DNA from: a virus
Strand: one strand, 5' to 3'
Virus record (IMG/VR): IMGVR_UViG_3300030419_001184
Span: 1-24,982 of that record
DNA length: 24,982 bases
Position numbers and translations under genes: made by a program. Of this stretch, positions 3,132 through 7,303 are shown piece after piece (positions within the stretch are counted from its first letter, which is position 1; each line of letters opens with the position of its first letter). The notes beneath the pieces are model-generated. The model saw nothing but the letters and a program-made list of their open reading frames with translations. It was not told the DNA's origin and did no database searches.

Positions 3132-4757
3132 ATGGACACAGCACGGCAACGATATAGTAAGTTGACCAGTGGCCGGACAGCATTTCTTGACGTAGCACTT
3201 GACTGTGCTAAGCTAACTCTACCTACACTCATGCTGAATGAGGAACAAAAGGCAGAGTACACGAAGTTCAAAACTCCGTGGCAATCAGTCGGTGCTAAAG
3301 GTGTAGTAACTCTAGCCTCTAAGCTTATGCTAGGGTTACTCCCACCTTCTACTACATTCTTTAAACTTCAACTAGATGATTCTAAGTTAGGAGTTGAGAT
3401 ACCACAAGAAGCTAAGAGTGAAATGGACTTAAGCTTCGCTAAGATTGAACGTATGATTATGGAGAGCATTGCAGCTTCTACTGATCGTGTTCAAATCTTC
3501 ACAGCTCTGAAGCATCTAGTTGTAGCAGGTAATGCTCTACTCTACATGGCTCCTAATGGTATGAAGATGTACCCTTTAAATAGGTACGTAGTGAATAGAG
3601 ATGGTAATGGTAATGTCACTGAGATAATTACAAGAGAGCGGGTCAACCGCCAAATACTAGGCGCACAATACAAGCTCCCTCCTAAGATTGGTGTCGTCGA
3701 TGAAAGCACAGGAGGACACGACAAGGATGTAGATGTCTACACCTGTGTTAGGCTAACAAAGAAAGGATGGTACTGGCATCAGGAAGCTGAAGACTACCCC
3801 TTAAAAGGTACTGAAGGTAAGGCTCCACTAGATAAAAGTCCTTGGCTGCCACTACGTTTTGTAACAGTAGATGGTGAGGACTATGGACGTGGTAGAGTAG
3901 AAGAATTCATGGGAGATCTCAAGTCTCTCGAAGGTTTGATGCAAGCATTGGTTGAAGGATCTGCTGCAGCTGCCAAAGTAATCTTCACAGTATCTCCATC
4001 CTCAACTACTAAACCAGCGTCACTAGCACAAGCTGGTAACGGTGCTATTATACAAGGTAGACCGGAAGACATTGGAGTAGTACAAGTAGGTAAACAAGCC
4101 GACTTCCGTACTGCATTTGATATGGCAGGGGTGTTAGAGAAGAGATTAGGTGAAGCCTTCCTTGTCTTACAGCCACGCCAAAGTGAAAGGACTACTGCAC
4201 AAGAAGTCCAGATGACACAGATGGAACTAGAACAACAGCTTGGAGGTCTCTTCAGTCTGTTAACTACTGAGTTTCTTCGACCTTATCTAAGACGTAAGAT
4301 GCATGTCTTACAAGCTGCTAAGAAGATACCTCCTATACCTAAGAACTTAGTTAAACCTACCATCGTGGCAGGTATAAATGCTTTAGGTAGAGGTCAGGAT
4401 AGAGATGCACTTGTACAATTTATCACTACCATTGCACAAACAATGGGACCAGAAGCTTTACAACAGTACATGAACCCTGATGAAGCTATCAAACGTCTCG
4501 CTGCTGCACAAGGTATTGATTATCTCAACCTCATTAAGAGTGTTGATGAAAGAAACGCTGAGCAACAGCAAGCTATGCAGCAACAGCAACAACAGATGAT
4601 GATGAGCCAGGCAGGACAACTAGCCAAGGCTCCGTTAGCTGATCCATCCAAGAACCCTGGTATACTAGAGGCTATGGGTATGGGCGCTGAACAACAGCAA
4701 GCAGCTGAAGCTCCACCCGACCCTGAACTAACAGCTCCTTTACCAGGCGCACAATAA
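3132..4757 (+). CDS. Head-tail connector (portal) protein, T7 gp8 homologue
   Basis: 541 residues, close to the 536 of T7 gp8. It would form the dodecameric ring at one vertex of the procapsid through which DNA is packaged and ejected. The N-terminal part (RQRYSKLTSGRTAFLDVALDC, LTLPTLM, then GAKGVVTLASKLMLGLLPPS at about 55-75) is the recognisable podoviral portal signature, as are the central DYGRGRVEEFMGDLKSLEGL helix region and ERTTAQEVQMTQMELEQQLG. The C-terminal tail is Gln/Met-rich (about residues 475-495, encoded by CAA/CAG tracts near 4555-4605), followed by a Pro/Ala-rich end, likely flexible. ATG 3132 directly follows the previous stop. Next gene starts 6 nt after the stop. Confidence 0.93.
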   Translation: MDTARQRYSKLTSGRTAFLDVALDCAKLTLPTLMLNEEQKAEYTKFKTPWQSVGAKGVVTLASKLMLGLLPPSTTFFKLQLDDSKLGVEIPQEAKSEMDLSFAKIERMIMESIAASTDRVQIFTALKHLVVAGNALLYMAPNGMKMYPLNRYVVNRDGNGNVTEIITRERVNRQILGAQYKLPPKIGVVDESTGGHDKDVDVYTCVRLTKKGWYWHQEAEDYPLKGTEGKAPLDKSPWLPLRFVTVDGEDYGRGRVEEFMGDLKSLEGLMQALVEGSAAAAKVIFTVSPSSTTKPASLAQAGNGAIIQGRPEDIGVVQVGKQADFRTAFDMAGVLEKRLGEAFLVLQPRQSERTTAQEVQMTQMELEQQLGGLFSLLTTEFLRPYLRRKMHVLQAAKKIPPIPKNLVKPTIVAGINALGRGQDRDALVQFITTIAQTMGPEALQQYMNPDEAIKRLAAAQGIDYLNLIKSVDERNAEQQQAMQQQQQQMMMSQAGQLAKAPLADPSKNPGILEAMGMGAEQQQAAEAPPDPELTAPLPGAQ

Positions 4758-5865: not shown

Positions 5866-5944
5866 CGGCGGCCCGAACAGTTCATCGTACCCGCCCAGTA
5901 CAATTATTCTAACCCCTAATGCCAAACAACATTCACGCGACTGA
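5858..5944 (+). CDS. Possible tiny peptide (28 aa) bridging to hli
   Basis: ATG 5858 overlaps the lysine-rich ORF by 8 nt and its TGA (5942-5944) lies 26 nt inside hli. The product begins MDSGGPNSSSYPPSTIILTP and is Ser/Pro-rich with no identifiable motif. It fills what would otherwise be a 53-nt gap and may exist mainly to couple translation into hli. Weak evidence: short, no homologue recognised. Confidence 0.35.
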   Translation: MDSGGPNSSSYPPSTIILTPNAKQHSRD

Positions 5945-6080
5945 ACCACAAGTACAAGTAATCGATGTAGATTACTATGAGAATGCTGAACGTGTCAACG
6001 GACAGCTAGCCATGCTTGGATTCATTGCAGCAATCGGTTCCTATATTTTTACTGGACAGATTATACCTGGAATATTCTAG
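5919..6080 (+). CDS. hli: High-light-inducible protein (Hlip/SCP)
   Basis: A 53-residue one-helix protein of the chlorophyll a/b-binding superfamily. The diagnostic helix is AERVNGQLAMLGFIAAIGSY (residues 23-42), followed by the standard TGQIIPGIF C-terminus. Glu24 and Asn27 match the pigment-ligand positions of ExxNGRxAM. Hlips bind chlorophyll and carotenoid in thylakoid membranes, dissipate excess energy and protect photosystem II assembly; phage copies are thought to keep host photosynthesis running during infection. The usual Arg at Glu+5 is Gln29 here. The N-terminus is short and soluble (IHATEPQVQVIDVDYYEN). It sits between scaffold and capsid, a cyanopodovirus position for photosynthesis genes; no psbA follows. 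Strong call, and the best evidence that the host is a cyanobacterium. Confidence 0.93.
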   Translation: MPNNIHATEPQVQVIDVDYYENAERVNGQLAMLGFIAAIGSYIFTGQIIPGIF

Positions 6081-6097
6081 GTCGCACACTCACCTCA

Positions 6098-6153
6098 CGT
6101 CCGTTCATCCCTCACGGGACGCATGACACCAAGGCATGGAACGGGGTCTTGGT
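6098..6153 (+). ncRNA. Candidate cis-regulatory structured RNA (three-way junction with pseudoknot)
   Basis: This stretch lies after hli and ends 17 nt before the next small ORF. By hand folding: P1 pairs CCGTTC 6101-6106 with GAACGG 6139-6144; P2 pairs TCCC 6108-6111 with GGGA 6116-6119 (loop TCAC); P3 pairs CATG 6122-6125 with CATG 6135-6138. The P3 loop contains ACCAAG (6128-6133), exactly complementary to CTTGGT at 6148-6153, giving a 6-bp pseudoknot. A competing fold pairs CGTCC 6098-6102 with GGACG 6117-6121, incompatible with P1 and P2. The strings CGTTCATCC, GGGACG and GGAACG recall the cyanobacterial glutamine riboswitch (glnA/Downstream-peptide) core, but the usual GGAAGUAGG segment is absent. 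It could instead belong to another cyanophage RNA class such as PhotoRC or wcaG. Structure is inferred by eye; identity open. Confidence 0.6.
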
Positions 6154-6170
6154 AGCTTAAGGTAATTCAA

Positions 6171-6233
6171 ATGACTTTAACCTATCGTGGCGTGAAGTAT
6201 ATTAAAACTAACACTTCAACAAAAAACAAATGA
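6171..6233 (+). CDS. DUF4278-like micropeptide (20 aa)
   Basis: ATG 6171 to TGA 6231-6233; the product is MTLTYRGVKYIKT plus a short polar tail. The N-terminal LTYRGVKY matches the M-x-L-x-Y-R-G-x-x-Y pattern of DUF4278 proteins, short proteins widespread in cyanobacteria and cyanophages with no established function. AAGGT at 6159-6163 is a reasonable ribosome-binding site about 7 nt upstream. The stop overlaps the next gene's ATG (ATGA at 6230-6233). It directly follows the structured RNA, so it may be the RNA's regulated peptide. Length is at the limit of what sequence alone can support. Confidence 0.6.
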   Translation: MTLTYRGVKYIKTNTSTKNK

Positions 6234-6592
6234 AAAAAATAGCCTTGATCCTGGCCTCGGTATTTACATCCGCAGGCGCAGCTGTTGCCGGACCTTATGT
6301 TAACGTAGAGTCCAACGCATCCTACACAGGATCTGACTATCAAAGTCGTACTACTGATTTCCACGTTGGTTGGGAAGGTGGTAACGATACTTTTGATTAC
6401 TATGTACAAGGCGGTCCAGCACTTGTCAACACTGACGGTACTGCTGATGGGACCACCGAGATGTCAGGTAAAGTTGGTGCCAGCGTAGCTGCTACTGATA
6501 AGCTTGGCTTCTATGGAGAGGTATCCGTCATCACTGCTGAAGACGTAGATAATTCTTGGGGTACTAAGATCGGAACTAAGTATAGCTTCTGA
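6230..6592 (+). CDS. Secreted small outer-membrane beta-barrel-like protein
   Basis: 120 residues with a clear Sec signal peptide (MKKIALILASVFTSAGAAVA, predicted cleavage after Ala20, AVA|GP). The mature ~100 residues alternate polar and hydrophobic residues in strand-like blocks (YVNVESNASYTG, TTDFHVGWEG, TFDYYVQGG, GKVGASVAATDKLGFYGEVS) and end KYSF, a C-terminal Phe as used for BAM recognition of outer-membrane proteins. It is short for a complete barrel (perhaps six strands), so it may oligomerise or act as a surface decoy. Similar signal-peptide proteins occur in cyanophages, with function unproven; receptor masking or envelope modification are possibilities. ATG 6230 overlaps the DUF4278-like stop; the stop overlaps the following ATG (ATGA). 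Confidence 0.75.
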   Translation: MKKIALILASVFTSAGAAVAGPYVNVESNASYTGSDYQSRTTDFHVGWEGGNDTFDYYVQGGPALVNTDGTADGTTEMSGKVGASVAATDKLGFYGEVSVITAEDVDNSWGTKIGTKYSF

Positions 6593-7106: not shown

Positions 7107-7107
7107 G

Positions 7108-7178
7108 GCGGGTATAGTTTAGTGGTAAAACTGCAGCCTTCCAAGCTGTTGTCACCGGTTCGAATCCGGTTACCCGCT
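7108..7178 (+). tRNA. tRNA-Gly (anticodon TCC)
   Basis: A complete cloverleaf can be drawn: acceptor GCGGGTA 7108-7114 with TACCCGC 7171-7177; D arm 7117-7131 (GTTTAGTGGTAAAAC); anticodon stem GCAGC/GCTGT (7133-7137/7145-7149) with loop CTTCCAA, anticodon TCC at 7140-7142; 4-nt variable loop; T arm ACCGG/CCGGT with loop TTCGAAT (7154-7170); discriminator T7178. CCA is not encoded. It would read GGA (and by wobble other GGN) glycine codons. It sits between accessory genes and the capsid gene; no integrase is visible in the window, so an attachment-site role is unsupported. Confidence 0.95.
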
Positions 7179-7303
7179 TTAGGCTTTAAGCCCTTACGAG
7201 GATACCTTATTGCCGCACGTGTGGTGACGTAACACCAATATAAAAAACTAAATATTTTTCTAAAACGTTTTAGAGTAGTCAACTATAAATACTATTCTTA
7301 TCA
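7179..7303 (+). promoter_or_regulatory. Capsid-gene leader: noncoding region with palindrome and AT-rich start-proximal segment
   Basis: The longest stretch in the window lacking a gene or RNA call (125 nt), between the tRNA and the major capsid gene. It holds a short inverted repeat TGGTG/CACCA around 7222-7236, a perfect 14-bp palindrome CTAAAACGTTTTAG at 7260-7273, and then AACTATAAATACTATT at 7281-7296, which resembles both a bacterial -10 region and, loosely, the ACTATA core of T7-type promoters. Late phage genes of this type usually have a strong phage promoter before the capsid gene, so a promoter is expected here, but I cannot assign one with certainty. No clear Shine-Dalgarno precedes ATG 7304. 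Confidence 0.45.

Follow-up and report, generated by a model that had tools for sequence, protein, structure and literature searches.

A glutamine-II riboswitch aptamer and a YRG micropeptide gene at a fixed site in T7-like cyanophages

The stretch of DNA analysed here (the window, 24,982 nt; IMG/VR record IMGVR_UViG_3300030419_001184) is part of the genome of a marine T7-like cyanophage, and the element between its hli gene and a 20-codon ORF is very probably a glutamine-II riboswitch aptamer preceding a YRG peptide. In T7-like cyanophages the riboswitch and peptide form a near-constant pair at a fixed position; most of those examined carry it, usually unannotated. While the RNA class, its ligand and the host peptide family are already known, the literature on riboswitches in cyanopodoviruses, of which our coverage was partial, contained no account of this fixed element in T7-like cyanophages.

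Genomic setting and distribution among cyanophages

The element lies within the structural genes of the window, in the order portal, scaffold, hli, riboswitch, micropeptide, outer-membrane-like protein, tRNA-Gly, major capsid protein and tail tube:

3132: portal gene, an upstream neighbour
4764: scaffold gene, upstream of hli
5919-6080, + strand: hli (high-light inducible protein), 53 aa, directly upstream of the riboswitch
6099-6153, + strand: glutamine-II riboswitch aptamer (RF01704, 54.2 bits)
6159-6163, + strand: ribosome-binding site AAGGU, spaced to the ATG at 6171
6171-6233, + strand: 20-aa micropeptide MTLTYRGVKYIKTNTSTKNK, a single LxYRGxxY repeat, DUF4278-like
6230-6592, + strand: cyanophage outer-membrane-like beta-barrel protein ("gp222", Phage_OMP PF24653), 3' of the micropeptide
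7107-7179: tRNA-Gly (anticodon TCC), after the outer-membrane-like gene region and before the capsid gene
7304: major capsid protein gene, downstream of tRNA-Gly
8462: tail tube gene, downstream of the major capsid protein gene

The hli assignment was made from a weak Pfam chlorophyll a/b-binding match together with DNA similarity to annotated cyanophage hli genes. A tRNA-Gly is annotated at the same place in cyanophage NATL1A-7. The gp222-like gene was observed just 3' of the micropeptide in the window, P-SSP6, NATL2A-133 and NATL1A-7, whereas in phages such as S-TIP37, S-RIP2 and S-SBP1 it precedes the riboswitch; its position is mobile around a fixed riboswitch.

Using a search model built from phage copies of the aptamer, we observed the aptamer in 63 of 80 viral loci that had been fetched only for their capsid gene (one match was cut by a contig end). 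Full aptamers were also present in 18 of 26 loci of cyanophages or their relatives besides the window, including the cultured Prochlorococcus phage P-SSP7, while S-SBP1 contributed an additional degenerate copy. The aptamer was always on the coding strand between the scaffold and capsid genes, at a distance from the capsid gene ranging from 238 to over 1,100 nt (often 240-320 nt), and because of this range most of the capsid loci without a match are too short upstream to judge. A scan by a phage-like pattern of the aptamer sequence returned at least 99 loci and is not a census; among the matches listed, 99 viral loci were chosen on the aptamer sequence alone, and 96 of them had cyanopodovirus neighbours in the expected order. 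An earlier scan with a loose DNA pattern returned mostly unrelated contigs and was excluded from these results.

Neither the riboswitch nor a YRG ORF was observed at the locus in seven related phages (WH11-B, S-CBP2, S-CBP42, P60, Syn5, S-SRP01 and Roseobacter phage CRP-114). A wild cyanopodovirus contig (L200), which reaches far enough upstream for absence to be judged, carries near 3293-3330 the sequence CGTCCGTTCA fused to sequence resembling the end of the YRG ORF; this looks like a natural deletion running from the 5' strand of the pseudoknot helix (PK) into the peptide, by which the aptamer and most of the ORF would have been lost. In S-SBP1 (L445, 3060-3212) and its relative L130 (240-414), unrelated sequence stands in place of the PK 5' strand and P1, with P2 and the YRG ORF retained.

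Aptamer class, helices and covariation

The aptamer matched RF01704 (Glutamine-II, formerly Downstream-peptide) over its full length (1-60), with 54.2 bits against a gathering cut-off of 33 (E 9e-11), while membership of the type I glutamine family (glnA, RF01739) was rejected at 16.1 bits against a cut-off of 35. An earlier note on this DNA had likened the phage RNA to the glutamine riboswitches of cyanobacteria, which often precede short peptides; this comparison is borne out, but the RNA is not a variant of glnA. The aptamer occupies the 5' UTR of a short peptide ORF, the ATG following 17 nt after it; this 20-codon ORF (6171-6233) and the ribosome-binding site at 6159-6163 were both confirmed as the note had given them. 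The parts of the aptamer are as follows:

6102-6106, + strand: PK helix, 5' strand (C1-C5 in crystal numbering; covariation set, PMC6698751)
6108-6119, + strand: P1 hairpin (6108-6111/6116-6119), two-sided changes in 4 of 4 pairs
6120-6126, + strand: linking strand CGCAUGA (C17 G18 C19 ...; PMC6698751 mapping)
6128-6135, + strand: P2, 5' strand, two-sided changes in 7 of 8 pairs
6139-6143, + strand: PK helix, 3' strand (G36-G40; covariation set)
6146-6153, + strand: P2, 3' strand, its last three bases (GGU) also starting the candidate P3

Core nucleotides were mapped from the structure of a Prochlorococcus glutamine-II RNA crystallised with bound glutamine (PMC6698751), and all of them (C1, G2, U3, C17, G18, C19, A33, A38, C39, G40, G41 and G42) were found in the window, as was the long-range pair C19:G41 (6122:6144). 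In 60 distinct phage aptamers chosen independently of motif, the majority of core nucleotides at the ligand site and in PK were invariant and the core as a whole was near-invariant, the exceptions being C5, G36 and C17, each varying in 2. From these sequence matches we take glutamine to be the probable ligand. The earlier note had suggested a variant sensing another metabolite, and phage copies do share two features not seen in the host copies examined, CATG in the PK loop and a phage-typical CGTMC preceding PK. However, at the mapped ligand-contacting and PK positions the nucleotides agree with the glutamine-bound crystal structure (PMC6698751) and the Rfam score is well above its cut-off, so that an unusual ligand is unnecessary and a changed one extremely improbable. 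The GCATGAC that had been read as replacing a conserved GGAAGUAGG likewise reflects no loss, GCAUGA being the normal type-II linker; a linking strand of the GCATGAC type also occurs in the crystallised Prochlorococcus RNA (...GGACGCAUGA...; PMC6698751).

Across 23 cyanophage sequences, 96.9% of cells paired under the type-II structure as compared to 80.2% in shuffles, and two-sided changes were observed in 12 of the 18 pairs. Cells with both sides changed numbered 56 against 13 in shuffles, and the helix covariation was matched by 0 of 500 shuffles. P1 and P2 covary strongly across cyanophages, while support for PK comes from one compensatory change (C-G to U-A, in SS120-1), the remaining PK pairs being invariant. 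The element is therefore described neither by absence of covariation nor by conservation at the codon level only, the two outcomes that the note had named as speaking against it. Folding energy was unremarkable (z of -0.39 for the aptamer and -1.07 for the region) and would be insufficient on its own to detect the element. RNAalifold on a MAFFT alignment recovered the aptamer helices only, and neither P0 nor P3.

All of the complementarities listed in the note exist in the sequence, and three of its helices are real under other names. What it called P1 (6101-6106/6139-6144) stands as 6102-6106/6139-6143 and is the pseudoknot helix; its P2 (6108-6111/6116-6119) covaries and is P1; and its 6-bp pseudoknot (6128-6133/6148-6153) is P2, with eight pairs (6128-6135/6146-6153). 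Two further pairings found no support. The CATG/CATG stem designated P3 (6122-6125/6135-6138) never covaries and clashes with C19:G41, and we therefore consider it spurious. The alternative hairpin CGTCC/GGACG (6098-6102/6117-6121) had no two-sided change and one pair broken in 9 of 23 sequences, and covariation does not support the model of two mutually exclusive folds that was built on it.

The apparent deletion in L200, the missing PK 5' strand and P1 in S-SBP1 and L130, and the seven related phages with no element would fit a riboswitch that was acquired from the host and has decayed, or persists as a passenger, without regulating anything in the phage today. We regard this as very unlikely, since P1, P2 and one PK pair show compensatory changes and the binding-site nucleotides are near-invariant across the 60 distinct copies, both of which point to continued selection.

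The window RNA shares with the Prochlorococcus glutamine-II element (RF01704, type 2) the same pseudoknot, P1, P2, linking strand and conserved binding-site bases, and both have a short ORF about 15 nt downstream. The window copy differs in its location within the structural-gene region of a phage genome, its single-repeat peptide, its phage-typical leader and a candidate P0/P3 platform drawn from the peptide's codons. Compared with glnA type I (RF01739), the fold and the CGUUCA...GGAACG core are related, but the window RNA is without a three-way junction or loop E. Virus-borne glutamine riboswitches have also been reported in the Melnitz methylophage, Pelagibacter phage Mosig and T4-like cyanophages; PMC9004378 describes them in other marine phages, and PMC9964418 and PMC9602691 mention them for T4-like cyanophages. 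The methylophage riboswitch is similar to glnA (type I) and is located at a tmRNA gene (PMC9004378), whereas the window element is type II and holds a fixed place in T7-like cyanophages. The original Downstream-peptide RNAs numbered 634 (PMC2864571) and may already include phage copies.

The YRG micropeptide

A YRG-containing ORF followed the aptamer in 82 of 82 isolate or capsid-locus cases (aptamer >45 nt). Short forms are mostly 14-22 codons in length, while long forms of 32-38 codons have an N-terminal extension and one repeat, and the core consensus is [LYF]xYRG[VI]xY[TK][KR]. Although the ORFs were selected by YRG, the position five codons after the first (YRG) Tyr played no part in that selection; all 102 cores have Tyr there, and both Tyr codons occur. 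Five Arg codons are in use within YRG (CGT, CGC, CGA, AGA and AGG), and overall peptide pN/pS was about 0.5, only moderate.

The micropeptide in the window scored 20.5 bits against the DUF4278 (PF14105) cut-off of 25.3 (E 6e-4), matching the first 18 of 57 positions, as is expected for one repeat out of three; host DUF4278 relatives score above the Pfam cut-off. Prochlorococcus genomes contain three to six RF01704 copies each; the YRG proteins encoded downstream of them have either three repeats (57 aa) or two (33-34 aa), and a different family of 50-56 aa (MNNLLQIREK...) is found there as well. Next to these host peptides of two and three repeats, the phage peptide is a single-repeat DUF4278-like form. 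It has in common with DUF4278 proteins and the N-terminal part of the glutamine synthetase inactivating factor IF17 (gifB) the LxYRGxxY motif and the arrangement as a riboswitch-controlled small protein, but holds its single repeat within 14-22 aa, or 32-38 aa with the extension, and the rest of IF17 is missing. No IF7-like domain, of the kind that binds and inhibits glutamine synthetase, was recognisable in the 20-aa peptide.

The second host family (MNNLLQIREKIKRANRL...VTPYRRSVFEERI, ~50-56 aa), which is without a Pfam match, was observed 3' of glutamine-II aptamers in the Prochlorococcus genomes L471, L473, L475-L479 and most of L318-L394. The long-form phage peptides bear a faint resemblance to its N-terminus. 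A search of solved structures with the host downstream peptides gave no matches.

The peptide might instead be incidental, a leader ORF coupling translation to host nitrogen state, with the aptamer responding to glutamine but actually controlling the downstream gp222-like or capsid gene. Consistent with this are the fixed place just before the capsid gene, often 240-320 nt upstream, and the overlap of the micropeptide stop with the next start in the window (ATGA, 6230-6233). We nevertheless find it doubtful, as the YRG peptide is invariably present although the next gene differs from phage to phage, the peptide sequence is conserved with synonymous changes, and a leader ORF has no need of an invariant YRGxxY. 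With the peptide as the regulated product, its role may be nitrogen-related, which we consider somewhat less likely than not, and could plausibly concern glutamine synthetase; given the link with the N-terminal part of IF17 (PMC6316151), nitrogen metabolism or glutamine synthetase is where a function would first be sought.

Candidate expression platform and proposed working

Permutation tests and folding support two further pairings, P3 and P0, as candidates for an expression platform:

6151-6186, + strand: candidate P3, a hairpin sequestering the ribosome-binding site (6151-6163/6174-6186, 12 pairs), with the AUG in or next to its loop
6091-6099, + strand: candidate P0, 5' arm, in the leader directly before the aptamer (8 of 9 pairs with 6186-6194; moderate statistical support)
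6186-6194, + strand: candidate P0, 3' arm, codons R-G-V inside the YRG codons

The P3 of short-form loci joins a segment running from the P2 end across the ribosome-binding site to the first codons, as far as UAU-C. The window hairpin was predicted at -7.1 kcal/mol, a value equalled by 11 of 200 shuffles. When arms were swapped between clusters of short forms, own arms were better (-8.1 versus -5.2 kcal/mol, 0 of 400). Removal of the P2 3' end weakened P3 by 4.6 kcal/mol on average (from -7.1 to -2.2 in the window), an upper estimate in that four bases were removed, three of them in P2. P2 and a full P3 are mutually exclusive, because the three terminal bases of the P2 3' strand (GGU, 6151-6153) are also part of P3. 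P3 was absent in the long-form peptides. Own P0 partners were better than swapped ones in both short (P 0.0125) and long forms (P 0.0025), and apparent register shifts, read by eye, restore pairing in some loci; fixed-register covariation of P0 was modest to weak, and a number of loci are without P0. Support for P0 and P3 is drawn from few independent clusters (9 of short form).

No terminator-like site was found between the aptamer and the ORF, and a transcription-termination platform was rejected; this result, together with the position between co-oriented genes, makes translational control probable. At low glutamine PK would be loose, so that GGU 6151-6153 could extend P3 and bury the ribosome-binding site. 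At high glutamine the ligand would lock PK and P2, P2 would retain GGU, and the weakened P3 would let translation begin. We judge this P2/P3 translational ON mechanism to be moderately probable on the modelling above. Nested folding with the PK bases held barely changed ribosome-site accessibility and gave no consistent shift, and the switch model therefore depends on the P2/P3 overlap. The glutamine-ON direction is proposed by analogy, in line with the Prochlorococcus type-2 switch, which according to PMC6316151, reporting Klahn 2018, is activated in expression by glutamine. With its start overlapping the peptide stop, the outer-membrane-like gene may be expressed along with the peptide in the window phage, possibly through translational coupling to the micropeptide.

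A more speculative proposal, and one we think unlikely in its entirety, is that the glutamine-gated micropeptide is a minimal single-repeat mimic of host DUF4278/IF17-type regulators with a platform made from its own codons (P3 and the long-range P0), by which the phage would tune host glutamine synthetase or nitrogen flow with glutamine during infection.

At a single conserved site within the structural genes, viruses of the most abundant marine cyanobacteria maintain a nitrogen sensor of host type together with a matching micropeptide, mostly unannotated, and P-SSP7 offers a ready system in which to study the element. If the peptide acts on nitrogen assimilation, the element would be a testable route for phages to read and change nitrogen status.
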